Assembly (NCBI RefSeq): GCF_001698225.1
Contig: NZ_CP016594.1
Span: 558,001-622,000 of the forward strand
Reading direction: 5' to 3'
From: Gordonia terrae
Lineage (GTDB): Bacteria; Actinomycetota; Actinomycetes; Mycobacteriales; Mycobacteriaceae
Length of the DNA: 64,000 bases
Of the stretch, positions 3,555 to 39,735 are shown one piece after another. Each line of letters begins with the position of its first letter. Position 1 is the first letter of the stretch. The notes beneath the pieces are model-generated. The model saw nothing but the letters and a program-made list of their open reading frames with translations. It was not told the origin of the DNA and did not search any database. Position numbers and translations under genes: made by a program.

Positions 3555-3568
3555 TTCATCATGATCAA
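3555..3568. promoter_or_regulatory. Palindromic operator, copy 1 of the block-wide motif
   Basis: TTCATCATGATCAA, a near-perfect palindrome centred on CATG. It lies 52 bases upstream of the ATG of the KstD-like gene and just past the end of the next minus-strand gene, so it can only serve the leftward KstD/crotonase unit. The sequence is seen directly; the role as a repressor site is inferred from recurrence. Confidence 0.65.
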
Positions 3569-3592
3569 ATTTCTGGCGGGGTTTCGGCTCGG

Positions 3593-4369
3593 TCAGCGGG
3601 CGAGGTACCCGGCGTCGACCGCCAGGGAATGCCCGGTCACGTATGACGATCGGTCCGAACACAGCCACAAGCAGGCCTCGGCGATCTCGTCCGGAGTGCC
3701 CAGGCGCCCGAACAGGCTGAGGCCGAATTCGTCGGGAGGCGTGACTCCCGACGCCGCTCGCGCGGCGCGAATCATCGGCGTGTCGATGCCGCCGGGTAGA
3801 ACCGCGTTGACGCGGATCTGATCCCGGCCGTGCTCGAGCGCGGCGGTCTTGGTCAAGCCCACGACGCCGTGCTTGGTCGCGACGTAGGCCGGATTGTGTG
3901 CGCGCGCTTTCACCGAGCTGACCGAGCCGAGGTTCACGATCGATCCGGATTTCTGCGAGACCATCTGTCGTAGCTCATGTTTGAGGCACAGAGCGACTGC
4001 CCGGAGGTTCACCGCGACGATACGGTCGAACGTCGCGATGTCGAGATCGACGATCGGCGCCGAGTCGGGGGGCATGGCGGCGTTGTTCACGGCGCAGTCG
4101 AGCCGGCCCCACTGGTCAGTCGCAACGGCAACCATGTTCGCGACGTCGTCCTCATTCGACACGTCGACGCGTGTGAAAGACGCAATCCCGCCCCCGGCCG
4201 AGATCTCGTCGACTGTCGCCTGCCCTCGGTCTACGTCGAGGTCGGCTATGAGGACCCGCGCCCCGGAAGAGGCGAGAAGCCGGGCAGTCGCGGCGCCCAT
4301 TCCAGAACCTCCGCCGGTGACGATCGCGACGCGACCGTCCATCTCGGATCGGTGTCCGGTGTGTGTCAT
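3593..4369 (-). CDS. Short-chain dehydrogenase/reductase (SDR)
   Basis: A 258-residue classical SDR that should oxidise a hydroxyl or reduce a ketone with NAD(P)(H). Visible motifs are the cofactor-binding TGGGSGMGAATARLL, the NNAA motif (CAVNNAAMP), the catalytic Ser and YxxxK (NLGSVSSVKA followed by YVATK), and the PGG-IDTPM loop after the active site. An Asp at the end of beta-2 (LIADLDVDR) favours NAD(H). ATG 4369 is preceded by AGGAG at a good distance; the in-frame extension further upstream would cross the operator and is unlikely. The gene is alone on its leader and divergent from the ABC importer, sharing the operator at 4509-4522. Confidence 0.88.
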   Translation of the reverse strand: MTHTGHRSEMDGRVAIVTGGGSGMGAATARLLASSGARVLIADLDVDRGQATVDEISAGGGIASFTRVDVSNEDDVANMVAVATDQWGRLDCAVNNAAMPPDSAPIVDLDIATFDRIVAVNLRAVALCLKHELRQMVSQKSGSIVNLGSVSSVKARAHNPAYVATKHGVVGLTKTAALEHGRDQIRVNAVLPGGIDTPMIRAARAASGVTPPDEFGLSLFGRLGTPDEIAEACLWLCSDRSSYVTGHSLAVDAGYLAR

Positions 4370-4508
4370 GTGGTGCTCCTGTCTGCGAAGGAAACTTCGC
4401 ACTATGGGTCCGAGAGGTTGTCCCGAGAAGCCTGTGACCTCGACTGTCTCGCAGAGGGTGTGATCTCCATCTCGAGCGATCCGAACTGTGACGCGGCTTG
4501 ACAACCTA

Positions 4509-4522
4509 TTCCTCATGATAAA
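4509..4522. promoter_or_regulatory. Palindromic operator, copy 2 (divergent promoter)
   Basis: TTCCTCATGATAAA lies between the divergent SDR gene (ATG 4369) and the ABC importer operon (ATG 4582), 60 bases upstream of the importer. One base of the left half differs from the best copies. Confidence 0.6.
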
Positions 4523-4581
4523 CACTTTGATGTGACAGTCGCCATAGTGATGCGACGTACAGCCACCTTGGAAGGACGCTC

Positions 4582-5595
4582 ATGAGCTGGAAAAAACTGA
4601 CGGCGCTCGTCGGCACCGCAGCGGTAGCCGTTGGCATCGCCGCATGCGGAAGCGGCGGCAGTTCGGGAGACGCAGGGGCCATGCAGGTCATGATGTTCCC
4701 GAGCGTCGCCTACCGCCTTCCGGTGATTGTGGCCCAGGAGAAGGGCTTCTTCGCTGACGAGGGCGTGAGCATCAATGTGATCGCGCAGCCCAACAATCTG
4801 CAGGGCATCCAGGCGCTCGAGGCGACCAAATCCCAAGCCGGCATGATGGGCACTTCGACTTTCGCGCAGGGCATCCAGGCCGGCAGCCAGGTGCAGGCGT
4901 TCTGCGGTGGAATCGATGTCACGCAGTCCTCGATCGTCGCATCGGCAGACTCCCCGTTGCCGTCGGTGTCCGAAGGGGCATCTCCGGATCAGGTCTTCGA
5001 CGCGATCAAGGGCCGCAAGGTCGGCGCACAGACTCCGGTCGGCAGTGGTTTCCAGGTCATGCTCGAGGACGCGCTGACCGAAGGCGGCGCGACGGACCTG
5101 ACCTGGGTCAATGTCGGCGGCAGTAACTCGGTCACGCAGGCATCGCTGCAGAACGGCAGCGTCGATGTCGCGCAGTCGAGTCCGTCGGGAACGCAGCAGT
5201 TGGTCGGAACCGGCGTGGCCAAAGAGCTGATCTACCTGCCCGATCACAGCGAACTCTATGGCCAGATGTACGGCAGCCCGTGGGTCGGCCCGACCGCCTG
5301 GCTCCAGGACAACGCGGAGACCGCCAAGGGGTTCTGTGACGCGACGGCCACCGCCCTCGACTACATCAAGGATCCGGCCAACCGAGACGAGGTCCGGCAG
5401 ATATCGATGAAGGACAGCGGGATCACCGACGAGAAGGTCGCTGATGCAGTCCTGGCAACTTACGATCGGGGCTACTCGGCCGACCTGTCGACAGATGTCA
5501 TCCAGCGGACGTTCGACAAATACGTCGAACTCGGCATCGTGAAGCCCGAGCCCCGGCTCGACGCCTCGACTCTCGTGAACACGGTCGGACGTTGA
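4582..5595 (+). CDS. ABC importer substrate-binding lipoprotein (NMT1/SsuA-like)
   Basis: A 337-residue periplasmic-type binding protein of the nitrate/sulfonate/taurine (NMT1/THI5-like) class. The N-terminus is a lipoprotein signal peptide with lipobox IAAC at Cys22, followed by a Gly/Ser linker. The mature part has the class pattern VAQEKGFFADEGVSIN near residue 50 and a later stretch on replacing ligand-binding loops. It should deliver the pathway substrate, or a cofactor precursor, to the permease encoded two genes on. AAGGA lies 8 bases before the ATG. It is the first gene of a three-gene operon behind operator copy 2, and the ATPase start follows its stop by one base. Confidence 0.9.
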   Translation: MSWKKLTALVGTAAVAVGIAACGSGGSSGDAGAMQVMMFPSVAYRLPVIVAQEKGFFADEGVSINVIAQPNNLQGIQALEATKSQAGMMGTSTFAQGIQAGSQVQAFCGGIDVTQSSIVASADSPLPSVSEGASPDQVFDAIKGRKVGAQTPVGSGFQVMLEDALTEGGATDLTWVNVGGSNSVTQASLQNGSVDVAQSSPSGTQQLVGTGVAKELIYLPDHSELYGQMYGSPWVGPTAWLQDNAETAKGFCDATATALDYIKDPANRDEVRQISMKDSGITDEKVADAVLATYDRGYSADLSTDVIQRTFDKYVELGIVKPEPRLDASTLVNTVGR

Positions 5596-5596
5596 C

Positions 5597-7347: not shown

Positions 7348-7359
7348 GATCGTCACAGA

Positions 7360-7395
7360 CCCCGGCCCCGGCGACATCGTCGCCGGGGCCGGTTT
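7360..7395 (+). terminator. Rho-independent-type hairpin after the ABC importer operon
   Basis: CCGGCCCCGGCGA (7362-7374) pairs with TCGCCGGGGCCGG (7380-7392) around a five-base loop and is followed by TTT. It sits between convergent genes and may serve both strands. Confidence 0.7.
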
Positions 7396-7431
7396 CAACT
7401 GCGCTGTCGGTGCTCGGTGGGCCGTTCGGCA

Positions 7432-8271: not shown

Positions 8272-8298
8272 GGCCGGAGGGTAGCAGCACTTCCCAAA

Positions 8299-8312
8299 TT
8301 CATCACGATGAA
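8299..8312. promoter_or_regulatory. Palindromic operator, copy 3 (divergent promoter)
   Basis: TTCATCACGATGAA is a palindrome except at the centre. It lies 28 bases from the crotonase start (minus) and 40 bases from the FMN-oxidase start (plus), so it must overlap or abut both promoters. Confidence 0.65.
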
Positions 8313-8351
8313 TTGATGCTTCTCGCGAACTCACCAGATAGGCTGTGAGAC

Positions 8352-9639: not shown

Positions 9640-10752
9640 TCACCGGGCGATGCTCACGGGCAGGGCGATGTCACACTCGTCGGTGGTGACGATCTCCTTG
9701 GAAACAGGCACATTCCCGTGCGCCCCGTACCCCCACGACATCATGACGCACGAGTAGGCGCCCGGGCCCCCGGCCACGAGCACCAGGACCGCTTCGGGTG
9801 ACTCCAGCGCCCTACGGTTGCCATGCGCGTCGACCGGAGCCTCGTCGGCGAGTGGGATGTCGCCGTTCAGCCGTGCCAGCTCGTATGGGTTGGTCGCCCT
9901 GTCATACAGCTCGCGCTGGATGTCTGCGCGGGTGTAACCCGCCGCATGAAGAGCCCTGGCGTGCTCGAGATTCAGGCAGACGACGACGGTGCCGCGTCCG
10001 GCGACCGCGTTGTTGTTGCCGGGCGACGTGATCGTCCGGGCTATCAGCTCGAGAAGACGATTGTGCTGGTCCGGGTCATCGTCATCGAGAACGCATGTGA
10101 GGGTGTGTGGTCCGAGGACGTTCACCGCGGTCAGCACGCTCTGTTCCGCGTCGAAGCCGAAGGTCTCGTGCAGCCGTGGGTACGGGCTCTCCTCGTGCTC
10201 CGCCAGACAGTACGACAGCTTGCCCGGGTGTCCGAGCAGGGTCATGTCGGTGAACCCCGGCCATCCTCCTCCGAGATTGATGAGGCACAGCCGAATTGCT
10301 CTGCCGATCGTGAGGTTCGCGGCGTGTCCGTAACCCAGGGCGCCGTGCGAACCGGAGATCGCGAGCGCCGGGGCGATCGGGCCGCTGACGATGAGCAGTG
10401 GGGTCAGCGCGTGCGTCGTCGACTGGACCGCGGACATGTCGAGTCGTTCGTCGCAGACAGCTTTCACGCCGGCCACGACCACCGGCAGATAGTCCGGGAC
10501 GCACCCCGCCATCACGGCGTTGATCGCCACCTTCTCGATGGTCGCCTCTCCCATCTGCGGGGCGACCCGTCCCAGGATGAGGTCACGGTCGAGGCCGGCG
10601 ATCGCTGCCGCGAACAACATCTCCTCGACACGTTCCCGCGTGGGGAGGATGACCGGGAGCCCGTCCGTACGGCGATTGTCGCGCAACCAGTTCTGCAGTT
10701 CGTCGTCCGAGCGGCCCTCTATCTCGCGTGAGACCAGCTTTGACTGTGCCAT
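9640..10752 (-). CDS. Conserved protein encoded with the CGSC protein (UGSC-partner type)
   Basis: A 370-residue soluble protein without a signal peptide. I recognise it only as the usual neighbour type of UGSC-family proteins. It has a helical N-terminus (DELQNWLRDNRRTDGLPVILPTRERVEEML), a conserved-looking centre with ISGSHGALGYGHAANLTIGRAIRLCLINLGG in outline, and a C-terminal Gly-rich GGPGAYSCVMMSWGYG. A CLINLGGGWPG stretch may form a binding loop. Its ATG follows the CGSC gene stop by one base, so the two are co-translated and probably form a complex. The reaction is unknown; a thiol-based reduction or lyase step is only a guess from the partner's CGSC motif. Confidence 0.6.
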   Translation of the reverse strand: MAQSKLVSREIEGRSDDELQNWLRDNRRTDGLPVILPTRERVEEMLFAAAIAGLDRDLILGRVAPQMGEATIEKVAINAVMAGCVPDYLPVVVAGVKAVCDERLDMSAVQSTTHALTPLLIVSGPIAPALAISGSHGALGYGHAANLTIGRAIRLCLINLGGGWPGFTDMTLLGHPGKLSYCLAEHEESPYPRLHETFGFDAEQSVLTAVNVLGPHTLTCVLDDDDPDQHNRLLELIARTITSPGNNNAVAGRGTVVVCLNLEHARALHAAGYTRADIQRELYDRATNPYELARLNGDIPLADEAPVDAHGNRRALESPEAVLVLVAGGPGAYSCVMMSWGYGAHGNVPVSKEIVTTDECDIALPVSIAR

Positions 10753-11302: not shown

Positions 11303-11444
11303 TTTCGGAACCCTCTCGATGAAGCGCGGATGGTCGGTCTACCGCCGACTCGCGGGACGCCGGTGAGGAGCCCCTCAGCCGACGAGCGTCCTCGCGGGGG
11401 CGACTACTGCGCACCCAGGCACTGTGGCGACGCTCACACCAATG

Positions 11445-11458
11445 TTTATCATGAGAAA
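11445..11458. promoter_or_regulatory. Palindromic operator, copy 4
   Basis: TTTATCATGAGAAA upstream of the CGSC-protein unit (minus strand) and just past the stop of the quinone-oxidoreductase gene, so it serves only the leftward CGSC pair. Confidence 0.6.
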
Positions 11459-11505
11459 TGGTGCTGTCAAGGTGCGTGCGTGCTCGAACTGAGCCGCTGC
11501 GCTGC

Positions 11506-12483: not shown

Positions 12484-12531
12484 CGTCGGCTCCTCGTATG
12501 GAATTCGATCGGCGCATCACGCACCGGTGTA

Positions 12532-12545
12532 AACATCATGAGAAA
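12532..12545. promoter_or_regulatory. Palindromic operator, copy 5 (divergent promoter)
   Basis: AACATCATGAGAAA, identical to copy 7. It lies 49 bases from the quinone-oxidoreductase start (minus) and 72 bases from the aldehyde-dehydrogenase start (plus). TAAGAT and TAATGT directly to its right could be -10 elements. Confidence 0.6.
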
Positions 12546-12616
12546 TAAGATAATGTGTTCCACGTCGCAAGTCCACGGTCGGCGTGAGCGCCGGCTCTTC
12601 AGGAGGTTCTTCTGAC

Positions 12617-14122: not shown

Positions 14123-14138
14123 GATTCGCCTTGCGATA

Positions 14139-14152
14139 ATCATCATGATAAA
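14139..14152. promoter_or_regulatory. Palindromic operator, copy 6
   Basis: ATCATCATGATAAA, 51 bases upstream of the first gene of the long P450/acyl-CoA-dehydrogenase operon. It runs directly into TTAATGTGG, a possible -10 region with the same spacing as at copies 8 and 9. Confidence 0.65.
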
Positions 14153-14202
14153 TTAATGTGGCTTGTGACACAGTCGTCTGAAGTACAGGTGAGGGAAAGC
14201 GG

Positions 14203-14697
14203 ATGTCTACGACACAGGAAATGGTCGAACGGATGGCGCGCGTGGTCGATGACATGGAGATCCGACGGACGATCACCGACTACGCGACCCTTGTGGACGC
14301 GCGGCAGTGGAAGCGACTTGCGGCCATCCTCGACGAGGACGTCGTCGTGGAGTACCACAATGGCCGCACGACCGTGACGGGTGCGACCGCAGTGGCCGAA
14401 TACGTCGAGGCCAACACCTCGCACGTGTCATGGCAGCACCACATGGTGTCGCCGTATGGCGTCGACGTCGACGGTGACACCGCGTCCGCCCTTGCCTACC
14501 TGGTCTCACACCAGCAGATCCGCAACGACGACGCCGAGTTCCTCATGATGGCGGCCGATTACACGCTCGAGCTCGCCCGTCGCGATCGCGGATGGGTCAT
14601 CACCCACATGGTCCACACGATCAAGGTGGCGAGCTTCCTGCCGATCTCGTCCACACCGATCGCCGGTGCCGAGGTCCCCGCCGCCGTCCGCCACTGA
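14203..14697 (+). CDS. SnoaL/NTF2-like small enzyme
   Basis: A 164-residue protein of the NTF2/SnoaL-like fold, a cone-shaped barrel used by isomerases, cyclases and ring-hydroxylating small subunits. The opening helix with ITDYATLVDARQWKRLAAIL, the Asp-rich LDEDVVVEYHNG, HHMVSPYGVDVDGDTASALAYL in outline and the last strand RRDRGWVITHMVHTIKV are typical of SnoaL_4 proteins. A His pair (WQHHMV) could be catalytic. A GAGGGAAAG ribosome site precedes the ATG. It is the first gene of a 12-gene operon (to 26033), so it probably acts early, perhaps as an isomerase or hydratase of the steroid delta-isomerase type; the substrate is unknown. Confidence 0.75.
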   Translation: MSTTQEMVERMARVVDDMEIRRTITDYATLVDARQWKRLAAILDEDVVVEYHNGRTTVTGATAVAEYVEANTSHVSWQHHMVSPYGVDVDGDTASALAYLVSHQQIRNDDAEFLMMAADYTLELARRDRGWVITHMVHTIKVASFLPISSTPIAGAEVPAAVRH

Positions 14698-14742
14698 GAA
14701 CGTCTCGCCAACCAGCCAGCCAAGATTCGAGGACACATCACC

Positions 14743-16005
14743 ATGGCAGCCCATTCGACCCCCGAACTCACCGAAGCCGACCTGGCGGAAGCTGCGGAGC
14801 GGCTCAAGCGTGCCGAGGCCGCCGGTTGCCCGGTCGTCAACTTCGACTACACGACCCCGCAGCCGGCCTTGAGCTACTTCTCGAAGTTCGACGAGCTGCG
14901 AAACCAGGGGCCGACCGCGTACTCGTCCTACGGCCCCGGGTTCTGGATGCTGTTGACCTCCGATCTGGTCCGTGAGGCATACCAGACCCCGGAGGTGTTC
15001 AGCAGCCACGCGACCATCCCGTCGATCCCCAATCCGGACTGGCACTGGATCCCGACGATGGTCGACCCGCCGCAGCACAGCGAGTACCGTCGGATGCTCA
15101 ACATCGCGTTCTCGCCCCGTTTCGTGAAGCAGAACGAGGACCGGATCCGACAGGATTGCATCGAGACCATCGAGAAGTTCGCCGCCGACGGAAAATGCGA
15201 CTTCATCGAGCAGTTCGCGAAAGTGTTTCCGACACAGGTTTTCCTGCGTATCGTCGGCCTGCCGATGGAGCACACCGAGATGTTCATGGCGTGGGTCGAG
15301 GCGACCTTCGAGGGCCTCGGCCACTTCGGGGACAAGGCGGTCAGCCAGCGCGACGCGCAGATCGCGATCCGCGGTTACTTCTCGGAGATCCTGAAAGACC
15401 GGCGGGAGAACCCGCCGGCCAATGCCGAGGATGACTTCTTCTCCATCCTGGCCAACACCGTGATCGGCGGCGAACCGATCACCGACGAGAACTTCGCCAA
15501 CATGTCCGAGGTCATCCTGCTGGCCGGGCTGGACACGGTGAAAAGTCAGCTCAGCTACATGTTCTACTGGCTGGCCAACAACCCGAGCGATCGTGAATGG
15601 ATCGTCCGCGAGCCGGAGATCATCCCGAATGCCGTGGAGGAGTTCCTGCGGGCCCACAACATCGTCATGACCGCTCGAAAGGTGACCGAGGACACCGATT
15701 TCCACGGTTGCCCGATGAAGAAGGGCGACATGGTGATGGTCGCCAACCCCTCGGCGTCGCGGGACGAGGCGGAGTTCGACAACCCGACCGAGATCCAGCT
15801 CGACCGTCAGATCACCACTCATTACTCCTTCGCGGGCGGTCCGCACCGCTGCGTCGGCGCGCACCTCGCCCGCAAGGAGTTGGCGATCGCGCTCGAAGAG
15901 TGGCACAAGCGCATCCCGAACTACTCCGTCACCAACACCGAGGGCCTTGTCGAGGCGGGCCCGCAGGTCGGACTGGAACGACTGGAGCTGGGGTGGACGG
16001 TATGA
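14743..16005 (+). CDS. Cytochrome P450 (P450cam-like), paralogue A
   Basis: A 420-residue soluble bacterial P450. The heme-ligand loop is FAGGPHRCVGAHLAR with Cys370; the I-helix reads AGLDTV with the conserved Thr265, as in P450cam; the K-helix ExxR is EFLR at 300-303. AGGA precedes ATG 14743. The following ferredoxin gene overlaps its stop, so the electron donor is co-translated. It differs from the second P450 (31178-32440) at 64 of 420 aligned positions by my count, about 85% identity, mostly in the first 50 residues and around 195-220. It should hydroxylate an unactivated carbon of the pathway substrate. Confidence 0.95.
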   Translation: MAAHSTPELTEADLAEAAERLKRAEAAGCPVVNFDYTTPQPALSYFSKFDELRNQGPTAYSSYGPGFWMLLTSDLVREAYQTPEVFSSHATIPSIPNPDWHWIPTMVDPPQHSEYRRMLNIAFSPRFVKQNEDRIRQDCIETIEKFAADGKCDFIEQFAKVFPTQVFLRIVGLPMEHTEMFMAWVEATFEGLGHFGDKAVSQRDAQIAIRGYFSEILKDRRENPPANAEDDFFSILANTVIGGEPITDENFANMSEVILLAGLDTVKSQLSYMFYWLANNPSDREWIVREPEIIPNAVEEFLRAHNIVMTARKVTEDTDFHGCPMKKGDMVMVANPSASRDEAEFDNPTEIQLDRQITTHYSFAGGPHRCVGAHLARKELAIALEEWHKRIPNYSVTNTEGLVEAGPQVGLERLELGWTV

Positions 16006-16229
16006 CCATGCACGACACCGCAATCCGTCGAATCACCATCGACACCGGCCGGTGCAGCGGTCACGGACGCTGCTACACGCTGGCCCCCGACGTGTTCGAT
16101 CCCGACGACGAGGGCTTTCCGGTCCTGCTCGCCGAGACCGTCACCGGCGATTCGCCGCACCTGCGTGACGTGCAGGCAGCCGTGGACGGCTGCCCGGAGC
16201 GCGCCATCTCGATGGAGGCCGAGGCATGA
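16002..16229 (+). CDS. Single-cluster ferredoxin for the P450
   Basis: A 75-residue ferredoxin with the actinobacterial P450-partner pattern C-x2-H-x2-C...CP: Cys18, His21, Cys24 and Cys64-Pro65. His in place of one Cys predicts a 3Fe-4S cluster or an unusual 4Fe-4S ligand. It passes electrons from the reductase encoded at 24858 to the P450. The ATG overlaps the P450 stop (ATGA), and its own stop overlaps the next ATG, so translation is coupled on both sides. Confidence 0.92.
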   Translation: MTMHDTAIRRITIDTGRCSGHGRCYTLAPDVFDPDDEGFPVLLAETVTGDSPHLRDVQAAVDGCPERAISMEAEA

Positions 16230-17467
16230 CGGCAGCCGCCACCCGGCGCCCCGATCTCGACGAGCACACCGTCTCGGCCCGCGTGTGGCTGGCCGAGAAT
16301 GCGCCTGCGACATCCGTGGCCGCCCGTGATGCTCACGACGTCTCGGTGTTCCACAACCTGTCCCACGACGTCGAGCAAGGACTGATCGACGAGCTGCGCG
16401 CGTGGCAACGCACGAAGTTCGACGGTGGCTATGCGGCGATCTCCTGGCCGTCAGACATGTACGGCGCGGGCCTGCCGGCCGAGTTCGAGGACGCGTTCAA
16501 ACAGGCGGAGGCCGAGCTGGTCCCGCTGCCTCGGCACGAATTGCTCTCGGTGACCGTCAATCTGATCGCACCGACGATCCGTATCTTCGCCTCCGAGACC
16601 GTCCGGTCGATGTTGCTGCCGGGGCTGCTGGACGGGTCGTTACTGGCTTGTCAGCTGTTCTCCGAACCGGCCGCCGGCTCCGACCTCGCCAACGTCTCCA
16701 CTCGCGCACGTCGGGACGGTGACGACTGGGTCCTGTCCGGACAGAAGGTGTGGACCTCGGGCGCCCAGTTCGCCGATTGGGGTCAGGCCATCGTCCGCAC
16801 GGAACCGGGTTCGTCGGGGAGCGGCGGACTGACGACCTTCGTCATCCCGATGGATGCCGAGGGTGTCGAGGTACGGCCGATCCGGCAGATGTCGGGCGGC
16901 ACCAGCTTCAACGAGGTGTTCCTCAACGACGTTCGGATACCGGACAGCCATCGGCTGGGTGACATCGGCGACGGGTGGGCGGTCACTCGCGCCACACTCG
17001 GTTTCGAGCGGGCGAACGCATCGAACAAGAAGGGGGTGGGCGGCTCGTTCGACCAGCTCCTGGAGCTCGCGCAGCGCACCGGTTCCCTGCAACACCGCGA
17101 CATCCGCACGGGGCTGGCCGAGGTGCGCCTCCGCGAGGTCGGCGCCGAGGTGGCGCTGCGCCGGGACAAGCGTGCCCGTGACGCCGGCGAGGCGCCTGGT
17201 GCGGCCGGGTCGATGCGCAAACTCCAGTGGGTGACGCGGCTCGGCATGGTCTCCGACCTGGCGCGAACAATGCTGGGAGACAAGCTGATCGCTGACGACG
17301 GCGACCCCGGCACGTTCTCCTGGAACGCACACCTGCTCGGTGCGCCCGGCTACCGGATCGCCGGCGGCACCGACCAGATCCAGCGCTCCATCATCGCCGA
17401 ACGTCATCTCGGGCTGCCGCGGGAACCGCGCGCGCCCAAGCCCTCTCGAACGGAACCCACCAAATGA
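16226..17467 (+). CDS. Acyl-CoA dehydrogenase (FadE-like)
   Basis: A 413-residue acyl-CoA dehydrogenase introducing an alpha-beta double bond into an acyl-CoA with FAD. Motifs are QLFSEPAAGSDLANVSTRA, GQKVWTSGAQFADW, and a C-terminal AGGTDQIQRSIIAERHLGLPRE. The usual GGTDEIQRN of this class reads GGTDQIQRS here, so a conserved acidic residue near the active site is Gln. It may therefore be one subunit of a hetero-oligomer, as found in steroid side-chain FadE pairs, or use another base. It sits between ferredoxin and SDR with ATGA overlaps at both ends. Confidence 0.9.
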   Translation: MTAAATRRPDLDEHTVSARVWLAENAPATSVAARDAHDVSVFHNLSHDVEQGLIDELRAWQRTKFDGGYAAISWPSDMYGAGLPAEFEDAFKQAEAELVPLPRHELLSVTVNLIAPTIRIFASETVRSMLLPGLLDGSLLACQLFSEPAAGSDLANVSTRARRDGDDWVLSGQKVWTSGAQFADWGQAIVRTEPGSSGSGGLTTFVIPMDAEGVEVRPIRQMSGGTSFNEVFLNDVRIPDSHRLGDIGDGWAVTRATLGFERANASNKKGVGGSFDQLLELAQRTGSLQHRDIRTGLAEVRLREVGAEVALRRDKRARDAGEAPGAAGSMRKLQWVTRLGMVSDLARTMLGDKLIADDGDPGTFSWNAHLLGAPGYRIAGGTDQIQRSIIAERHLGLPREPRAPKPSRTEPTK

Positions 17468-18219: not shown

Positions 18220-18230
18220 ACACCGACGGG

Positions 18231-19553: not shown

Positions 19554-19554
19554 C

Positions 19555-22438: not shown

Positions 22439-22463
22439 ACCTCCCCGACTGAAGGAGCCCCCC

Positions 22464-23774: not shown

Positions 23775-23775
23775 C

Positions 23776-24861: not shown

Positions 24862-26033
24862 CTCCCGACGGTGGTCATCGAGTTGTGGTGCTCGGTGGCG
24901 GAATCGGCGGTGGACGCACCTGTGCCGCACTCCGATCGGAGGGTTTCGACGGTCACATCACCCTCATCGGTGGGGAGGAGCACGACCCCTATGACCGTCC
25001 GCCGCTGAGCAAGGCGTGTCTCACCGAGTCCGCCGACCCCGGCCTCGGACTCGACTTCGAGGAACTCGAGGTCTCGGTCCGGCGCGGCGTGTGGGCGACC
25101 GGACTTGATCGGGGCGCCAAGATCGTCGCGACCACCGGTGGTGACATCGGTTACGACACACTGGTTCTCGCAACCGGTTCGGCACCAGTTCGACTCCCTG
25201 GGCCGGGTGAACAATTGACTTTGCGCACACGAGAAGACGCCGAGAAGCTTGCGGCGGTGCTACGGCCCGGGGCGCGGATGGTCATCGTGGGAGCCGGTTG
25301 GATTGGCGCCGAGGTTGCCACTGCAGCGAAGGGTTTCGGCTGCTCGGTGGTGTGCGTCGAGGCAGGTGACGGCCCGCACGCGGGTCCGTTCGGTGCAGCG
25401 GTGTCCCAACGAATGGCCGAGATGTGGGAGGGCGTCGACCTCCGCGTGCGAACAGGTGTGGCCGAAGTCGAGGACGCCGGCGTCCGGCTCATCGACGGCA
25501 CTCTGCTCACCGCGGACGCAGTCGTGGTCGGGGTTGGTTCGCGAGCTGATGTCGGCTGGCTGGCCGCGGCGGGTCTCGACGTCGATCGGCACGGGATATG
25601 CGTCGATTCGGGGCGTCGGACAAACGATCCTTCGATCTATGCGATCGGTGACGTCGCGAGCCGGTGGAGCGACCGTCTGTCGGCGCGGGTCCACACCGGC
25701 CACTGGGATGAGGCGGCAGTAGGCGGCGCGGTCGCGGCGCGCTCGATCATGCATTGCGACAGGGGGACCGATGACATCCCCTACTTCTGGTCAGACCAGT
25801 TCGGGCGCAAAGTGCAGTATGTCGGGCAACATCGCCGAGGGCATCGGTTGATCGTCCGCGATCACCCGACGACGGATCGCTGGGGTGCGGTCTGGCTCGA
25901 CGAGTGCGATCGCGTTGCCGCCCACCTGTCGGTTGGTTTTCCGCGGGCAATGATCCACGCGCGATCCGCCATCGCGGACGGCCGCCGGGTGGATCGGAGG
26001 ACTCTGGCTGATCTGACTGCACCGCTGGGATGA
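24858..26033 (+). CDS. FAD/NAD(P)H ferredoxin reductase for the P450 chain
   Basis: A 391-residue reductase of the putidaredoxin-reductase/rubredoxin-reductase type. It has FAD motif VVLGGGIGGGRTCAALR, PYDRPPLSK, VLATGSAPVRLPG, NAD motif VIVGAGWIGAEVATAAKG, and the second FAD motif IYAIGDVASRW. It should reduce the ferredoxin encoded at 16002 and so drive the P450s. The ATG overlaps the preceding stop (ATGA). It is the last gene of the operon that begins at 14203. Confidence 0.92.
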   Translation: MTPDGGHRVVVLGGGIGGGRTCAALRSEGFDGHITLIGGEEHDPYDRPPLSKACLTESADPGLGLDFEELEVSVRRGVWATGLDRGAKIVATTGGDIGYDTLVLATGSAPVRLPGPGEQLTLRTREDAEKLAAVLRPGARMVIVGAGWIGAEVATAAKGFGCSVVCVEAGDGPHAGPFGAAVSQRMAEMWEGVDLRVRTGVAEVEDAGVRLIDGTLLTADAVVVGVGSRADVGWLAAAGLDVDRHGICVDSGRRTNDPSIYAIGDVASRWSDRLSARVHTGHWDEAAVGGAVAARSIMHCDRGTDDIPYFWSDQFGRKVQYVGQHRRGHRLIVRDHPTTDRWGAVWLDECDRVAAHLSVGFPRAMIHARSAIADGRRVDRRTLADLTAPLG

Positions 26034-26084
26034 GCGCATCGGCCGGGTTCGGACTCGATGCGCGGACCCGCCTCGATGTGATAG

Positions 26085-26098
26085 ATCATCGGTATGAA
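26085..26098. promoter_or_regulatory. Degenerate copy of the block operator before the GntR gene
   Basis: ATCATCGGTATGAA matches the consensus at both outer arms (ATCATC and ATGAA) but not in the central CATG. It lies 51 bases before the preferred GntR start. It may be an autoregulatory site or chance. Confidence 0.3.
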
Positions 26099-26149
26099 TT
26101 GCTGACCCGTGGAAACTCCGCAGGTACTGCTATCAGGGATGGGGACAAC

Positions 26150-26950
26150 ATGACCGAATCGAATGCCAGGACGCGTGACATCGCTGACCAGCCCGCGATC
26201 GCGATTGCGGGAGGCGGTTCGGTACTCCGTCCGTTGAAGGCTGCGGAGGTCGTCGCGCGCGCGGTTGTGCGAACCATTCGCTCCGAGGGTCTTCAGACCG
26301 GGGACAGTCTGCCGTCCGAGGCCGAGATGCTCCCTCAGTACGGGGTGAGTCGCGAATCCTTACGAGAGGGATTGCGGCTTCTGGAGGTCCAGGGCATGAT
26401 CTCCATCCGCCGCGGGCCCGGAGGAGGCCCGATCGTCGGCACGGTCGATTCGGCCAACCTGGGTCGGATGGAGGCGCTGTACCTCCATCTCGCCGGGGCG
26501 ACATACGACGAGTTGTTCGAGACGTGGGTGTTCGCCGAGACCACCCTGGCCGGGATGGCAGCTGCAAACCCTGACAGCGAGGCGCGCCATGCCGCCATGG
26601 CACCGTACATCGACGGGCTCGTGGACGAGGTCGTGCACGGCGACCTCGACGTCTACATGTCCGGACACGAGGGCTTTCACGGATCGGTGGCGGCCCTTGC
26701 GGGCAATCGCGTCTTTCAGGTGACCTTCCGCGCCTACGGACAGATCGTTGCCCACCACCTGGCCATGGTCGGCGACGTCAAGTTGATCCATCAGGAGCTC
26801 GTCGACGACCATCTCGAACTCGCCCAAGTGATCTCCGAAGGAGATCCCGAACGGGCATCCACATTGATGAACCAGCACCTGACTCGTGTTCTCGCGTTGA
26901 ACCGAGCGCAGCTGGGCACTCTCCTCGACGGCGACGTGGAGTGGGTCTGA
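26150..26950 (+). CDS. GntR-family (FadR/FCD subfamily) transcriptional regulator
   Basis: A 266-residue regulator. The N-terminal winged helix-turn-helix spans about residues 30-100 (DSLPSEAEMLPQYGVSRESLREGL in outline, then GMISIRRGPGGGPIVG). The C-terminal helical FCD-like effector domain has the metal or ligand His and Asp candidates YMSGHEGFHGSVAALAGN and VDDHLELAQVISEGD. I prefer ATG 26150 (GGGGA upstream) over 26030 because a longer form would add an unconserved tail and place a possible operator inside the gene. It is the only transcription factor in the catabolic block and so the best candidate to read the repeated palindrome. Its effector is probably a CoA ester or acid intermediate. 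Confidence 0.88.
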   Translation: MTESNARTRDIADQPAIAIAGGGSVLRPLKAAEVVARAVVRTIRSEGLQTGDSLPSEAEMLPQYGVSRESLREGLRLLEVQGMISIRRGPGGGPIVGTVDSANLGRMEALYLHLAGATYDELFETWVFAETTLAGMAAANPDSEARHAAMAPYIDGLVDEVVHGDLDVYMSGHEGFHGSVAALAGNRVFQVTFRAYGQIVAHHLAMVGDVKLIHQELVDDHLELAQVISEGDPERASTLMNQHLTRVLALNRAQLGTLLDGDVEWV

Positions 26951-26989
26951 ATCCCTCCCGAGTCGTCGACTCACAGAAGGAAATTCACG

Positions 26990-28609
26990 ATGTTCTTCCA
27001 CGAGTCCATCGCCAGGTCGCTGCGCGCCGAAGGCGTCACCAGCATCTTCGGCGTGATGGGTGACGCGAATCTGTACATGATGGACAGCTTCGCGGATCTC
27101 GATGACACCCAGTTCATCTCGACTTCCAACGAGGCCGGGGCGATCACCGCGGCCAACGGATACGCTCGCGTCACCGGAGGTCTCGGCGTGGCCAGCGTGA
27201 CCCATGGCCCCGCGCTCACCAACACCTTGACCGGCTTGGTCGAGAGTGTGAAGGATCGGACCCCGGTACTCCTCGTCGCCGGTGACACCGCGGTTGTCGA
27301 TCGCGACAACTTCCAGAACATCGCCCAGCGTGAGCTGGTCGTCGCCACGGGTGCCGGTTTCGAACAGGTGCGGTCTGTCGAGACGATTGCGGAGGACGTC
27401 GCCGTTGCGGTTCGCCGCGCGATGACCGAACGTCGGCCGATCGTGCTCAATGTGCCGATCGAGTTCCAGTGGCAGCAGGCCGGACACTCTGCCGGAGAGC
27501 GCAGGTGGGCGCCGGTTCAGGCAGTGCGGCCGGCAGCGCAGGCGCTCGAGGATGCGGTGGCAGTCGTTGCTGCTGCCCGACGGCCGTTGGTGATCTCCGG
27601 GCAGGGCGTGATGTCTGCCGAGGCGCGCGCCGCCGTCGCGCGTTTCGCCCACCGTATCGGCGCGCCTCTCGGTACCACACTGCGCGGCCGCGATTCATAT
27701 CGCGACGACCCGCACAACATCGGCATCGTCGGCACCATCTCGCACGAGGTCGCCCTCGATGTGATCGGCGATGCGGACACCGTGATCGCCTTCGGTGCCG
27801 GGTTGAACAAGTGGACGACTCTGGAAGGCAGCGTGCTCGCCGGCCGCCGCGTAGTTCAGATCGATTGTGACCGAGACGCCCTGCACCGCAATGGTTCCGC
27901 TGATGTCGTGGTTCTCGGCGATGCCGCGGCGACCGCGGATGAGCTCGTGGAGATGCTCGACTCGATCGAGGTTCCGGCAACCGGTTTCGCCTCGCCGGAA
28001 CTCGCGGCGCGACTGACCGAGCGCCGCGATGACGGGTTCGTGGACCGCAGTCGCGTCGGAACGGTGGATCTCCGCTCGGCGATGATCGCCATCGAGAATG
28101 CTTTCCCGCGCGATCGCGCTCTGGTCTATGACGGTGGCCGGTTCATCTTCAACGCGTTCGCGCTGTTTCACGTCGAGCAACCCCGGGACTACGTGCACAC
28201 GGTGAACTTCGGATCCATCGGACTGGGGATGGGAAATGCGATCGGTGCAGCGGTCGGTTCCCGTCGGCCGACCCTGTTGGTCACCGGTGACGGTGGCTTC
28301 ATGCTCGGCGGTCTCGCCGAGTTCAACACCGCGGTGCGTCACGGACTCGATCTCGTGGTCGCGGTCTTCAACGACGGGGCCTACGGCGCCGAACACATCC
28401 AGTTCCGCCGAAAGGAGCTGGATCCGTCTCGGTCGACGTTCGATTGGCCGGACTTCGCGCCAGTGGCCGAATCGCTCGGTGGGCGGGGCTACACGGTGAG
28501 GTCGTTGGACGATCTCCATCGGGCCCTTGCCGAGCTGCCGAATCGCGATCGTCCGATTCTGCTGGACATCAAGCTGGACCCGGACGAAGTCGACTCAGCG
28601 GGACACTGA
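26990..28609 (+). CDS. TPP-dependent decarboxylase/lyase (acetolactate synthase-like family)
   Basis: A 539-residue three-domain ThDP enzyme. The Pyr domain contains the activating Glu in TSNEAGAITAANGYARV in outline (around residue 48); the middle domain spans ~190-330; the PP domain binds ThDP-Mg through GDGGFMLGGLAEFNT and ends NDGAYGAEH. Relatives include benzoylformate decarboxylase, 2-hydroxyacyl-CoA lyase and acetolactate synthase; the sequence does not decide which. In this block, cleaving a 2-oxo acid or 2-hydroxyacyl-CoA to an aldehyde would link the FMN oxidase and the aldehyde dehydrogenase. AGAAGGAA precedes the ATG. It lies 39 bases after the GntR gene and is probably co-transcribed with it. 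Confidence 0.88.
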   Translation: MFFHESIARSLRAEGVTSIFGVMGDANLYMMDSFADLDDTQFISTSNEAGAITAANGYARVTGGLGVASVTHGPALTNTLTGLVESVKDRTPVLLVAGDTAVVDRDNFQNIAQRELVVATGAGFEQVRSVETIAEDVAVAVRRAMTERRPIVLNVPIEFQWQQAGHSAGERRWAPVQAVRPAAQALEDAVAVVAAARRPLVISGQGVMSAEARAAVARFAHRIGAPLGTTLRGRDSYRDDPHNIGIVGTISHEVALDVIGDADTVIAFGAGLNKWTTLEGSVLAGRRVVQIDCDRDALHRNGSADVVVLGDAAATADELVEMLDSIEVPATGFASPELAARLTERRDDGFVDRSRVGTVDLRSAMIAIENAFPRDRALVYDGGRFIFNAFALFHVEQPRDYVHTVNFGSIGLGMGNAIGAAVGSRRPTLLVTGDGGFMLGGLAEFNTAVRHGLDLVVAVFNDGAYGAEHIQFRRKELDPSRSTFDWPDFAPVAESLGGRGYTVRSLDDLHRALAELPNRDRPILLDIKLDPDEVDSAGH

Positions 28610-29482: not shown

Positions 29483-29555
29483 ATTCGTTCCTTCGTATTC
29501 CCGGTGGAGACGCACCGCGCGGATCGGGAGTTGTTGCCGCGCAGGCCTTGGCAAT

Positions 29556-29569
29556 AACATCATGAGAAA
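29556..29569. promoter_or_regulatory. Palindromic operator, copy 7 (divergent promoter)
   Basis: AACATCATGAGAAA, identical to copy 5, between the LLM gene (74 bases to its GTG, minus) and the SDR (103 bases to its ATG, plus). It is followed by TTATTCT, a possible -10. Confidence 0.6.
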
Positions 29570-29671
29570 TTATTCTCGAATGTGCCACCCCGATGGCATG
29601 GCGAACACCACCGTTCTCGGAACGAGCTGACCTCGCATACCCGCGGACACGTCGAAAGGTACTGCCGAACA

Positions 29672-30482: not shown

Positions 30483-31037
30483 GTGAGGCGCCGTCGAAGG
30501 CTTCCCACCGTCGATGACGTGATGCGACTGGATGAGGTGGACGTGGGTCCGATCCCGGCCGACCACATCGACGGGAACGGGCATCTCAGCGTGCGGTTCA
30601 TCGTGGAGATCGCAGCCCACGGGGCGCACGAGGTGCTGGTGGCCTGTGGGCTGACAGACGCGCGCCGCGCGAGTACCCATCAGGGTGTGTTCACCGCTGA
30701 GCACCACCTCGTCTATCTGAGTGAGATGAGGGTCGATTCCGATCTCGGCGTCTACGTGCGAATACTGGATCGGTCGAGTCGCGCGGTGATCCTGTTGGCG
30801 TTCGTCGTCGATCGGACACGGCGACGCGTCACCACGGTCCTTCGAACCGTAGTCGTCAGCGTCGACCTCACCACGCGGAGGGCGAGACCGTTTGCGCCAG
30901 AGGTGGCTCGTGAGATCGACAGGGTCATGCGCCGCCATGAATCGCTGTCCTGGTCGCCACCGTTTCCGCGATGGGGCAGGTTGTCTGGCTCTCGTCGGCG
31001 CAGGTGGCGACGCCGCATCGCCGGCGGCTTGCTGTAA
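30483..31037 (+). CDS. Hotdog-fold acyl-CoA thioesterase-like protein
   Basis: A ~170-185 residue protein of the 4-hydroxybenzoyl-CoA thioesterase type. IPADHIDGNGHLSVRFIVEIAA in outline carries the family's D-x-NGH motif near the start of the long helix, and SRAVILLAFVVDRTRRR, TVLRTVVVSVDL are the later strands. The extreme C-terminus is very Arg-rich (SGSRRRRWRRRIAGG), possibly disordered. It should hydrolyse a pathway acyl-CoA. The start is uncertain: GTG 30483, GTG 30519 or ATG 30522; none has a strong ribosome site. It follows the SDR by 46 bases and is probably in its operon. Confidence 0.7.
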   Translation: MRRRRRLPTVDDVMRLDEVDVGPIPADHIDGNGHLSVRFIVEIAAHGAHEVLVACGLTDARRASTHQGVFTAEHHLVYLSEMRVDSDLGVYVRILDRSSRAVILLAFVVDRTRRRVTTVLRTVVVSVDLTTRRARPFAPEVAREIDRVMRRHESLSWSPPFPRWGRLSGSRRRRWRRRIAGGLL

Positions 31038-31050
31038 CCCTCATGAGGAA
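31037..31050. promoter_or_regulatory. Palindromic operator, copy 8
   Basis: ACCCTCATGAGGAA overlaps the stop codon of the thioesterase-like gene by its first base and precedes the second P450 gene (128 bases to its TTG). It runs into TTAGTGTGG with the same spacing as copies 6 and 9. Confidence 0.6.
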
Positions 31051-31177
31051 TTAGTGTGGGCTGCGACACATCCGCTGCCTCCGTTTTGCGTGTGTCACTC
31101 ACCAAGTGGTCGAACGGAGGCCCGCGATCCCGCAGCCCTGTCGGGCGCTTCCGATCGACCAGTCGAGGAGACGTCTC

Positions 31178-32440: not shown

Positions 32441-32563
32441 ATCCGCCGACAAGGTGAAGCGGATCGCCGAGACGAATGCACGGGAACTCCTGTCGGCCAG
32501 TCGGATTGGGAGTAATCGAGTCCCTCCGCCATCGAAGCCATCCGGCGGGCCGCAGTTGACTAA

Positions 32564-32577
32564 ATCATCATGAGGAA
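32564..32577. promoter_or_regulatory. Palindromic operator, copy 9
   Basis: ATCATCATGAGGAA, 85 bases before the APH-like kinase gene that opens a five-gene operon. It is followed by TTAAGGTGTG with the same spacing to GTG as at copies 6 and 8. Confidence 0.65.
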
Positions 32578-32661
32578 TTAAGGTGTGACTGTGTTCACTC
32601 ATACAGGCCGCGCCCGCCGTGCGCCATGGGACCGGTGCTCGAAGGCCGGGAGCGTTGACGC

Positions 32662-33771
32662 ATGACCGCCGGTGCACGTGACGATCTCACTCCGGATGTC
32701 GCGCCGGTGCGCGACGGCGAGAATCTCGACTGGGATGCGCTCGAGACGTATCTCCGGCTGCACCTCTCTGAGGTCGGCGGACCGTTTTCGGTGCTCCAGT
32801 TCCCGCGCGGATCGGCGAACCTCACCTATCGGGTGACCTTCGGCGATCGGCATCTCGTGGTGAGGCGACCGCCGCTCGGGCAGGTTGCGGCGGCCGCGCA
32901 CGACATGGCGCGCGAACATCGGGTGCTGTCCCGCTTGTACGCCGCCTATCCTCGGGCGCCTCGTGCGTACCTCCACTGTGCGGACACCGCGGTCATCGGC
33001 GCGGAGTTCTTCGTCTCGGAGTACCGGCGCGGTCACGTGGTCTGGGACCACGTCCCAGCGGCGATCTCGACCGACGCCGATGCATCCGTACGGGTGGGTC
33101 TCGCGGTCATCGACGCACTTGCGGACCTGCACGACGTCGATCCCGCCGCGTGTGATCTGCAGGATCTCGGCCGCCCCGAGGGATTTCTCCGGCGGCAGGT
33201 CGAGGGGTGGACGCGCCGGTGGGCCGCAGTCGCGGAGCAGTCGTTGCTCGATGATGCAGTGCAGACCCGGGTGATGGTCGACGAGGTCGCCGCGCGCCTT
33301 GCGCGCGACCTCCCTCGGACCCAACGAGCAGGCATCGTCCACAACGATTTTAAGATCGACAACTGTCAGTTCATCGCCGGTGATCCCGACCGAGTCGCCG
33401 CGGTGTTCGACTGGGACATGGCAACTCTCGGGGATTCGCTCGCCGACTTCGGCACGCTGCTGAACTACTGGCCCGACCACACCCTGTCAGCCGATGATCC
33501 CGGTGCGTTTGTCGCTGCGTCGGCCACTCGTGAGCTCGATCTCCCCGATCGTGATGCGGTCGTCGAGCGATATGCGTCCACGAGTTCGCTCGACCTCGCC
33601 GAGATCGCCTGGTACGAGGCCTTCGGATGCTGGCGCACCGTCGTCATCTTGCAGCAGCTGTATGCGCGAGCGGTCCGCGGCGAGAGCGCCGACCCACGCA
33701 TGCTGCAGCGGGGCGAGATGGTCGCGCCACTGACTCGCCGAGCGCTTGCGTTGCTCGGCGGCATCGTCTGA
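32662..33771 (+). CDS. APH-fold phosphotransferase (ACAD10/11 N-domain-like)
   Basis: A 369-residue kinase-like protein of the aminoglycoside-phosphotransferase fold. The Gly-rich region is FPRGSANLTYRVTFG, the ATP-site Lys/Arg region LVVRRPP, the catalytic loop IVHNDFKIDNC (variant of HGDxxxxN), and the metal Asp is in VFDWDMATLGD. Such domains accompany ACAD10/11, where a hydroxyacyl-CoA is phosphorylated and then dehydrated. Here it may phosphorylate a hydroxylated acid before elimination; antibiotic resistance is unlikely. It is first in an operon with a small protein, acyl-CoA synthetase, ferredoxin reductase and MaoC hydratase. Confidence 0.85.
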   Translation: MTAGARDDLTPDVAPVRDGENLDWDALETYLRLHLSEVGGPFSVLQFPRGSANLTYRVTFGDRHLVVRRPPLGQVAAAAHDMAREHRVLSRLYAAYPRAPRAYLHCADTAVIGAEFFVSEYRRGHVVWDHVPAAISTDADASVRVGLAVIDALADLHDVDPAACDLQDLGRPEGFLRRQVEGWTRRWAAVAEQSLLDDAVQTRVMVDEVAARLARDLPRTQRAGIVHNDFKIDNCQFIAGDPDRVAAVFDWDMATLGDSLADFGTLLNYWPDHTLSADDPGAFVAASATRELDLPDRDAVVERYASTSSLDLAEIAWYEAFGCWRTVVILQQLYARAVRGESADPRMLQRGEMVAPLTRRALALLGGIV

Positions 33772-33811
33772 CCCACTTCCTTCTCCAAGCCGATCAGAAA
33801 ACGAGGAACTC

Positions 33812-34102
33812 ATGAAGACCGGAAGCAGGCTTCTCAGCTCGGTATGTGACACCGAGGTCATGGTGGTCAAGGGCGCCGACATCGAAATCGACTGTGGTGG
33901 TGCGCCGATGGTCGACGTCCGGACCGCTGACGTCGGCGATGTGGCAACCGGATTCGACGGCGGCACGGCGCTCGGAAAGCGGTACGTGCATGAGGCCTCG
34001 GGTCTGCAGGTGCTGTGCGTCAAGCCGGGTGTCGGAAGCCTGTCCGTCGACGGCGAGATCCTCCCGGAGCTCGCCGCGAAAAAGCTCCCCTCGTCGGACT
34101 GA
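33812..34102 (+). CDS. Small conserved protein of unknown function (96 residues)
   Basis: A 96-residue soluble protein I cannot place in a family by eye. ATG 33812 follows GAGGAACTC. It has two Cys, CDTEVMVV near residue 12 and CGGAP near 30, a stretch on short beta-strands (ADIEIDCGG, QVLCVKPGVGSLSVDG), and a Lys-rich end. Lying between the kinase and the acyl-CoA synthetase within one operon suggests an accessory role, for example a substrate carrier or subunit. Tight spacing (8 bases to the next ATG) makes it a real gene. Confidence 0.7.
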   Translation: MKTGSRLLSSVCDTEVMVVKGADIEIDCGGAPMVDVRTADVGDVATGFDGGTALGKRYVHEASGLQVLCVKPGVGSLSVDGEILPELAAKKLPSSD

Positions 34103-35580: not shown

Positions 35581-35626
35581 TCGACCGTGACCGCTCAGCC
35601 GGTCCGAGGAGAAATCAGGTGAGGTC

Positions 35627-37240: not shown

Positions 37241-37280
37241 CCCGAGAGTGCCCCTCACTCATGGACCAGACCGGAGACCG

Positions 37281-37754: not shown

Positions 37755-37772
37755 GGGTCGCCGGCCCTCCGG

Positions 37773-39155: not shown

Positions 39156-39183
39156 GAGCTTCCTGTCCCTCTATCGTTGGTCG

Positions 39184-39516
39184 TCACACGAACGTCGGCA
39201 CACGGGCTTCGGCGCTCGCGTGAAGCCGGGGCAGGGGCGCGCGGATGCCGGCAGTCAGGTGTAGGCCGTCGAACCGCCCGAAGCGTTCTGCGTGGAGTTG
39301 TAACCTGTCGACCCGCACCTGCCATTCGAAGCTGGCGAAACGATCGCGTAGCCAGAGAATGTTGATGAAGGCCAGCGTGTCGTCGAGGTGGCCAATCGTG
39401 TGCCGACGAACTTCTTGTTGCAGCCGAGCATGATCGAGCCCCGTGACCACCCAGAGCTCGGTGGTCGTCGACCGATCCCTCAGGAGGACGCCGGAATTCG
39501 CAATGGTGAGGAGCAC
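39184..39516 (-). CDS. Doubtful small CDS upstream of the FAD oxidase
   Basis: A possible 110-residue product from GTG 39516, only two bases after the stop of the 23-codon ORF upstream and 28 bases before the FAD-oxidase start. About four fifths of its third codon positions are G or C, as in real genes here, and it has a plausible hydrophobic core (TLAFINILWLRDRFASFEW), but I recognise no family. It could also be the rest of a gene broken by a frameshift with the 23-codon ORF, or non-coding leader. Confidence 0.25.
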   Translation of the reverse strand: MLLTIANSGVLLRDRSTTTELWVVTGLDHARLQQEVRRHTIGHLDDTLAFINILWLRDRFASFEWQVRVDRLQLHAERFGRFDGLHLTAGIRAPLPRLHASAEARVPTFV

Positions 39517-39518
39517 GA

Positions 39519-39590
39519 TTATCGCTGCGTTGAGCCGGGGACGAGCTTGTAACCGACTGCGGGTCGTCGAGCACTTCTCTTGTCTGCCAT
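39519..39590 (-). CDS. Doubtful 23-codon ORF (possible leader peptide)
   Basis: ATG 39590 opens a 23-residue frame beginning MADKRSARRPAVGYKL and ending at TAA. A weak GGCGGAAA lies upstream. It is 132 bases downstream of operator copy 10 in the minus direction. It could be a leader peptide coupled to the next ORF, the front of a frameshifted gene, or chance. Confidence 0.2.
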   Translation of the reverse strand: MADKRSARRPAVGYKLVPGSTQR

Positions 39591-39721
39591 CTGGTTTCCG
39601 CCCGTGATCTGTGAGTGCGAGAGCGAGCACAGGTCGACGCGTGGGCGCGGCCCGGGGGCCACGGACCCGGGTGCGAAGCCGGCCGCGAGAGCGTTCGGGT
39701 GTGCTCCACGCCACTCTAACA

Positions 39722-39735
39722 TTCATCCTGATGAA
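39722..39735. promoter_or_regulatory. Palindromic operator, copy 10
   Basis: TTCATCCTGATGAA, a palindrome except at the centre. Read leftward it is followed by TGTTAGAGTGG, resembling the TTAGTGTGG after copy 8, so it points at the leader and FAD-oxidase unit on the minus strand. It also lies just past the end of the SipW operon, which it cannot serve. Confidence 0.6.

Follow-up and report, generated by a model that had tools for sequence, protein, structure and literature searches.

The window analysed here is a stretch of 64,000 nucleotides of Gordonia terrae DNA (positions 558001-622000 of the single-contig 5.70-Mb genome). It carries a block of catabolic genes in which a short A/T-rich palindrome recurs, together with gntR, a gene for a FadR/FCD-type regulator of the GntR family. 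An earlier, sequence-only reading had listed ten 14-mers of this palindrome, and we located all of them (at 3555, 4509, 8299, 11445, 12532, 14139, 29556, 31037, 32564 and 39722). They are given here as predicted operators, with their weight-matrix scores and the regulator gene.

3552..3571, minus strand: operator 1, before the KstD-like flavoprotein/ECH genes (minus strand), score 28.2
4506..4525: operator 2, between SDR (minus strand) and NMT1/ABC transporter genes (plus strand), score 26.7
8296..8315: operator 3, between ECH (minus strand) and FMN-dependent 2-hydroxyacid dehydrogenase (plus strand), score 29.8
11442..11461, minus strand: operator 4, before the UGSC-family genes (minus strand), score 25.4
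12529..12548: operator 5, between Zn-alcohol dehydrogenase (minus strand) and aldehyde dehydrogenase (plus strand), score 27.4
14136..14155, plus strand: operator 6, heading the gene run 14203-28609, score 33.9
26030..26950, plus strand: gntR, FadR/FCD-type regulator and proposed repressor (Pfam GntR + FCD)
29553..29572: operator 7, between F420/LLM oxidoreductase (minus strand) and SDR/thioesterase (plus strand), score 26.6, -35/-10 recognised
31034..31053, plus strand: operator 8, before the second P450, score 24.5, -35/-10 recognised
32561..32580, plus strand: operator 9, before phosphotransferase (APH), small protein, CoA ligase, ferredoxin/reductase and MaoC, score 32.4, -35/-10 recognised
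39719..39738, minus strand: operator 10, 567 bp before the GlcD-like gene (minus strand), score 26.9

The consensus TTCATCATGATGAA, allowing up to three mismatches, matches the window eight times (seven of the ten sites and the intragenic 14539). Dinucleotide shuffles give 0.98 +/- 1.05, and none of 100 reached eight. Four sites lie between divergent genes, as had been reported (4509, 8299, 12532 and 29556). Those at 4509, 8299 and 29556 overlap the mechanical upstream extension of a minus-strand open reading frame (ORF) and are read as intergenic because homologous SDR, ECH and LLM proteins are shorter. The earlier observations that copy 10 is an exception and that the right-hand 24 kb lacks the motif also held: copy 10 stands far from the GlcD-like gene start (39155), inside a doubtful ORF (39184-39909), and the best score in the right-hand 24 kb is 11.1, versus 24.5-33.9 for the ten sites.

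The palindrome is confined to this part of the chromosome. A whole-genome scan had been suggested as a check, and a sequence-only profile built from the ten window sites alone (R1) gave 13 rows at E<=10 among the best 150 of 762 candidates, all at 555.68-597.74 kb and one of them a new site at 555682, left of the window. A second profile (R2) was built from 51 sites, including the ten window sites, 555494 and 555682. It gave 22 rows at 14 places in the same genome, namely the twelve training sites from this genome, 548916, which was outside the training set, and 4940335. The last (score 16.9), outside the block and inside a coding ORF, was taken as a chance match and rejected as an operator. 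The sites at 555494 and 555682 (before an amidohydrolase gene) and the weaker one at 548916 show that the block continues beyond the left edge of the window, where it has three further operators (L001 8916-8935 and 15494-15701, genome 548.9 and 555.5-555.7 kb). These precede a second NMT1 protein/flavoprotein pair, hydrolase/ECH/ligase genes and the amidohydrolase. The predicted regulon is thus a 49-kb block (about 548.9-597.7 kb) served by 12 strong operators and a thirteenth, weaker one.

Across genomes the motif accompanies gntR. Close relatives of gntR were found at five loci in the named genome collection, with a scan sensitive to close relatives only: in Streptomyces sp. NWU339, Georgenia ruanii, Geodermatophilus amargosae (twice) and a Frankiales metagenome-assembled genome (MAG). 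Such relatives are rare: only one of 397 genomes of the order has one at E<=1e-60 (G. terrae itself), and 2 of 396 genomes of the phylum at E<=1e-50. A large protein set contains many more GntR relatives, including one with 92% identity in Rhodococcus rhodochrous. A scan of related genomes had likewise been suggested: in five other gntR-bearing genomes, with the best 150 candidates per genome scored, all 35 R1 rows at E<=2 fell on the gntR contig (9, 14, 3, 3 and 6 per genome, some sites being counted twice, once per strand). For the Frankiales MAG (G780), the place of gntR was taken from the named-collection scan and from G143, whose contig number and places match. Two gntR copies share one contig in Streptomyces (G777:C44), in Geodermatophilus (G779:C22) and in G765:C17. 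Three of 200 genomes of the order have a motif match at E<=0.3, namely G. terrae, the Frankiales MAG (GntR 44% identical) and genome G015.

Four plasmid records encode a GntR at E<=1e-40, all of them from Rhodococcus (GntR 52-53% identical), and the 41 kb scanned around each gntR holds 4, 5, 4 and 4 sites scoring >20; three of these plasmids are near-identical. As negative controls we scanned 41 kb in each of seven of the 16 other plasmid records with a relative of the block acyl-CoA dehydrogenase (56-61% identity in those seven). None of these seven loci, in which related enzymes occur with a distant GntR or none, has a site scoring >=20, and two hold one at 15.5 and 16.1. GntRs are present in four of the seven, 28-41% identical to the block GntR. 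Overall, the motif tracks gntR down to 44-48% identity while the gene content changes. Corresponding promoters also share sites, as before the APH/ligase genes (the place of operator 9) in Streptomyces and Georgenia. In Streptomyces copy 2 and the Frankiales MAG a site lies between gntR and a divergent gene, and sites also adjoin gntR in R. opacus, which suggests autoregulation.

From ten contigs and plasmid loci we collected 70 sites scoring >=19.9, of which 63 are distinct, with the majority consensus NWATTCMTCATGAKGAATWN. The 63 operators have the core TCATGA with ATTC/GAAT arms, in the form TTC(A/C)TCATGA(T/G)GAA. They contain inverted TCATC/GATGA half-sites, and the spacer between these is two bases, AT, in nearly all sites. 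In 17 of 140 flank orientations TTGAC begins 4-10 bases ahead of the operator, versus a fraction of 0.0035 at random positions. For a promoter test, two near-duplicate plasmids were left out, giving 62 sites in 124 orientations from eight contigs or loci. The operator lies inside a TTGNN-N16-18-TANNNT spacer in 12 of the 124 orientations (12 of the 62 sites), versus 28 of 80000 random positions, a test that is not fully independent of the motif because the operator's TA end supplies part of the -10. Operator 9 is fused with such a promoter:

32556..32584, plus strand: promoter fused with operator 9 (TTGACT, 17 bp, TAAGGT)

At operator 6, TTGCGA at 14131 and TAATGT at 14154, 17 bp apart, were read by eye and stand outside the count of 12. 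Where the promoter is clear, a position within the -35/-10 spacer favours a repressor that occludes RNA polymerase; at most of the 62 sites there is no clear promoter of this type and the geometry is silent.

We propose that the palindrome is, in all likelihood, the operator of the block-encoded FadR/FCD-type GntR, acting as a repressor. Binding, repression and the inducer are inferred. A GntR dimer would read two ATTC(A/C)TCA half-sites over about 18-20 bp. With the operator in the -35/-10 spacer or overlapping the core promoter, where one is recognisable, GntR binding would block RNA polymerase. GntR would be released when its FCD domain binds a metabolite of the pathway, probably a carboxylate or CoA ester, and release would induce the whole 49-kb block, gntR included.

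The GntR protein itself has an N-terminal GntR winged helix-turn-helix (HTH; PF00392, 44.2 bits, cut-off 27) and a C-terminal FCD domain (PF07729, 48.7 bits, cut-off 24.3). Its homologues are about 267 amino acids long; the longest-ORF rule probably mis-set the start at 26030, and the true start is predicted to be the ATG at about 26150. H217, H261 and H283 are invariant in all 16 aligned members of the clade and presumably form the FCD ligand/metal pocket. Solved relatives include 2di3, which is LldR according to PMC4494728, and 6on4 (NanR). The same paper gives the rule that operators of the FadR subfamily (FadR, LldR, PdhR, GlcC, HypR) mostly have TKGT/ACMA boxes, with NanR and BioR as exceptions, and ties an Arg at position 28 to the G of the TKGT box. 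The protein described here shares with this subfamily the GntR HTH plus FCD domain and a palindromic A/T-rich operator. It differs in two respects, namely that TKGT/ACMA boxes are absent from the 63 distinct operators, and that the Arg of the LPSER motif, which by our own matching is position 28, is replaced in the clade by Ala (14 of 16) or Ser (2 of 16). The loss of this Arg fits the missing boxes. We rejected Ala in LPSER as the sole cause of the unusual operator: three of eight control GntRs also have Ala, none of the eight has Arg, and no motif lies nearby. The recognition helices of the controls are SRPTLRE (six of eight) or SRAVLRE (two of eight), versus SRESLRE in this clade. The related catabolic plasmid clusters L035, L036 and L039 (SRPTLRE) and L037 (SRAVLRE) carry other GntRs, for which operators should be detectable by a similar approach.

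Among the known regulators with which this system can be compared, LutR is of the FadR type, BioR reportedly acts on biotin genes, and KstR and KstR2 are TetR-type regulators of actinobacterial steroid regulons. Like the present regulon, those of KstR and KstR2 are local and cover catabolic genes that include thiolase, ChsH2 and ACAD, but their operators, as quoted in the sequence-only reading, are different. BioR, another FadR-subfamily member with a non-standard palindrome (TTATMKATAA, PMC4494728), is alike in this respect but has another operator sequence. The closest printed operator is that of LutR of Bacillus subtilis, a GntR repressor of L-lactate utilisation whose operator is TCATC-N1-GATGA (PMC11734750). 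Common to both are the GntR family, the TCATC/GATGA half-site and repression of catabolic operons released by a carboxylic acid, the latter being a proposal in our case. LutR differs in its N1 centre (N2, AT, here, with outer ATT/AAT arms also conserved), in sites that lie downstream of the promoter (recognisable promoters here hold the site in the -35/-10 spacer), and in its genes. Five forms of the motif were not found in the literature searched. The regulon is real, well supported and of a known kind of system, and very probably that of a FadR-type GntR.

Several observations weigh against the proposed repressor. The own gntR, itself part of the run behind operator 6 (in which one 220-bp gap carries no site), is preceded by a weak operator-like sequence only (26082, score 15.3). 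Such weak sequences before this gene and two orthologues were unconvincing on inspection. TKGT/ACMA boxes, the norm for the FadR subfamily (PMC4494728), are missing from the operator, which bears on operator class and not on protein membership, given the exceptions NanR and BioR named there. Operator 10 has no clear target and its target gene is the least clear of all; the region between it and the GlcD-like gene (39156-39721) shows no recognisable gene and no match in plasmid records, and is perhaps a degraded gene. TTGAC stands just before the operator at 16 of the 62 sites, just after it at nine and in neither place at 37, and the position just after would also suit an activator. Finally, sites occur where GntR was not detected. 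G683, a small, 87%-complete A/T-rich MAG, has four sites scoring >=19 in 12 kb (45.7% GC; mono-shuffle mean 0.23), in a stretch picked for its two profile hits, and G015, of the same order as G. terrae, has one match (C1:21650-21669, score 29.5); both are without a GntR at E<=1e-10. G683 stands against a strict one-to-one link between motif and gntR. Its sites lie at 4204, 5454, 7003 and 10037 of L043 (G683:C52); the four scores, from highest to lowest, are 32.1, 22.2, 19.7 and 19.3.

No GntR was detected at E<=1e-10 in G683, an incomplete MAG, or in four other multi-hit genomes, in a search without its own positive control. The phylum sample gave at least one palindrome match at E<=0.3 in 51 of 396 genomes, mostly small genomes with 1-5 rows each (G. 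terrae excepted), so that single matches mean little in A/T-rich genomes. By eye, neighbouring distinct sites were found in this sample only in G. terrae, G765 and G683.

A second palindrome lies next to many operators. TGTG-N8-CACA, with up to one mismatch, stands just downstream of eight of the 12 own operators, whereas the chance at a random place in the 82 kb read is 0.0048. The copies are as follows.

14157..14172: CRP/GlxR-like palindrome TGTGGCTTGTGACACA, beside operator 6
31055..31070: CRP/GlxR-like palindrome TGTGGGCTGCGACACA, beside operator 8
11423..11438: CRP/GlxR-like palindrome TGTGGCGACGCTCACA, beside operator 4
32584..32599: CRP/GlxR-like site with one mismatch, beside operator 9
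4531..4546: CRP/GlxR-like site with one mismatch, beside operator 2
3529..3544: CRP/GlxR-like site with one mismatch, beside operator 1
12554..12569: CRP/GlxR-like site with one mismatch, beside operator 5
39700..39715: CRP/GlxR-like site with one mismatch, beside operator 10

Three perfect copies occur in the 82 kb, all beside operators; the whole genome has 64, versus 52 of the reversed pattern. In the larger set, 15 of 124 flanks have a copy centred 18-25 bp downstream of the operator's own centre, against 0.14 expected from the same-contig background, and 12 occur at distances of 26-97 bp, in nine times as many positions. These figures are somewhat flattering because the pattern was seen first and then tested on the same sequences. 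Outside G. terrae the site accompanies four of nine operators in Streptomyces, one of 12 in Georgenia and one of four and one of five in two Rhodococcus loci, where four other operators have it at 33 bp. At 18-25 bp there is none beside the nine operators of G765, the seven of Geodermatophilus or the four of the Frankiales MAG (one there at 37 bp). Of the 23 hits within 38 bp at all loci, 21 have odd centre distances.

A CRP/GlxR-type protein is encoded just right of the window, at chromosome position 627.7 kb (L044 1489-2163). It matches the CRP/FNR-family chains 3h3u/3d0s (456 bits) and 4cyd/4byy (374 bits), which we take to be CRP of M. tuberculosis and GlxR of C. glutamicum. The GlxR consensus of actinobacteria is TGTGA-N6-TCACA (PMC7999487). 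The perfect form occurs in none of the eight own second sites, the inner A/T being degenerate. Catabolite control by CRP/GlxR is the obvious reading of these sites, though not a proven one.

These sites bear on an alternative in which GntR binds the palindromes as an activator or dual regulator and a CRP/GlxR-like protein is the main off-switch. We consider it unlikely. The adjoining CRP/GlxR-like palindromes, the presence of a suitable protein and the nine sites with TTGAC directly after the operator would all suit it, but the 12 sites that fill the -35/-10 spacer are placed as would suit a repressor. At operator 6 only 38 bp separate the CRP-like centre from the start codon, too near for activation at -41.5; at operators 2 and 8 the distance is 43 bp.

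A second alternative, that the palindrome is bound by a regulator encoded elsewhere and the link to gntR is a by-product of a shared gene cluster, appears improbable. It would account for the sites in G683 and G015, and for an operator unlike the TKGT/ACMA sites mostly used by FadR-subfamily members; the regulator inventory covers the own block, which leaves room for an unlinked or co-inherited regulator in relatives. Against it, Pfam analysis of the main ORFs of the own block found no other HTH protein (three ORFs, 9640-10752, L001 16959-17951 and 108-653, had no Pfam hit), the motif follows gntR despite changing gene content, related-enzyme loci without this gntR are also without the motif, and sites adjoin gntR in three lineages. 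That the palindromes are chance or a structural repeat, such as a terminator or REP-like element, can practically be dismissed: short A/T-rich palindromes do give common single matches in A/T-rich genomes, but no shuffle reached the observed count, R1 matched the own chromosome in the block only, and promoter geometry is shared at 12 of 62 sites across eight contigs or plasmids.

The sequence-only reading had held that a single local regulator controls the whole pathway. We find this supported: the motif is block-specific in its own genome and lies around gntR in the five genomes and four plasmid loci examined, the seven loci with related enzymes and a distant or no GntR are without it, and GntR is the sole DNA-binding regulator recognised by Pfam among the main ORFs. 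The word single may be wrong, in view of the CRP/GlxR-like sites. Further reservations are the sites of G683 and that control at the level of transcription is itself deduced.

More tentatively, and with rather less than even confidence, we suggest that these promoters form a mobile cassette with two locks. One would be a repressor of a FadR-type clade that has an operator class of its own (TCATC-N2-GATGA flanked by ATT arms, in the -35/-10 spacer), the other a CRP/GlxR-type site about two helix turns downstream, and both may have moved together with a large catabolic block among distant orders of actinobacteria. If so, one transferred unit would bring both specific induction and catabolite control. 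The operator offers a sequence-only test of gene membership in an uncharacterised catabolic pathway in Streptomyces, Georgenia, Geodermatophilus, Rhodococcus and Gordonia terrae, and points to a regulator that could serve as a biosensor. It also extends, by one operator class, a large family of regulators in which the rules of specificity are still being established.

The genes of the regulon include acyl-CoA dehydrogenases (ACAD), family III CoA transferases, a thiamine pyrophosphate (TPP) enzyme and an NMT1-type ABC importer, among others. The run behind operator 6 reads SnoaL, P450, the 220-bp gap, ACAD, SDR, CoA transferases, thiolase, ChsH2-like protein, ACAD, ACAD, reductase, gntR and TPP enzyme. 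Nothing recognised as this gene cluster was found in the literature searched. No solved structure related to the TPP enzyme was found at E<=1e-60. The small protein beside the APH gene (33746-34102) was considered as LvaB-like and rejected, as it has no Pfam support. The two P450s of the regulon resemble P450cam/CYP101, the lipid-transfer-type thiolase, with its ChsH2-like partner, resembles 6ok1, and the KstD-like flavoprotein resembles 3-ketosteroid dehydrogenase. Our guess is that the substrate is alicyclic or terpenoid. A tRNA-Pro (CGG) lies at 55353-55427, in the right-hand part of the window, which is unrelated to the block.

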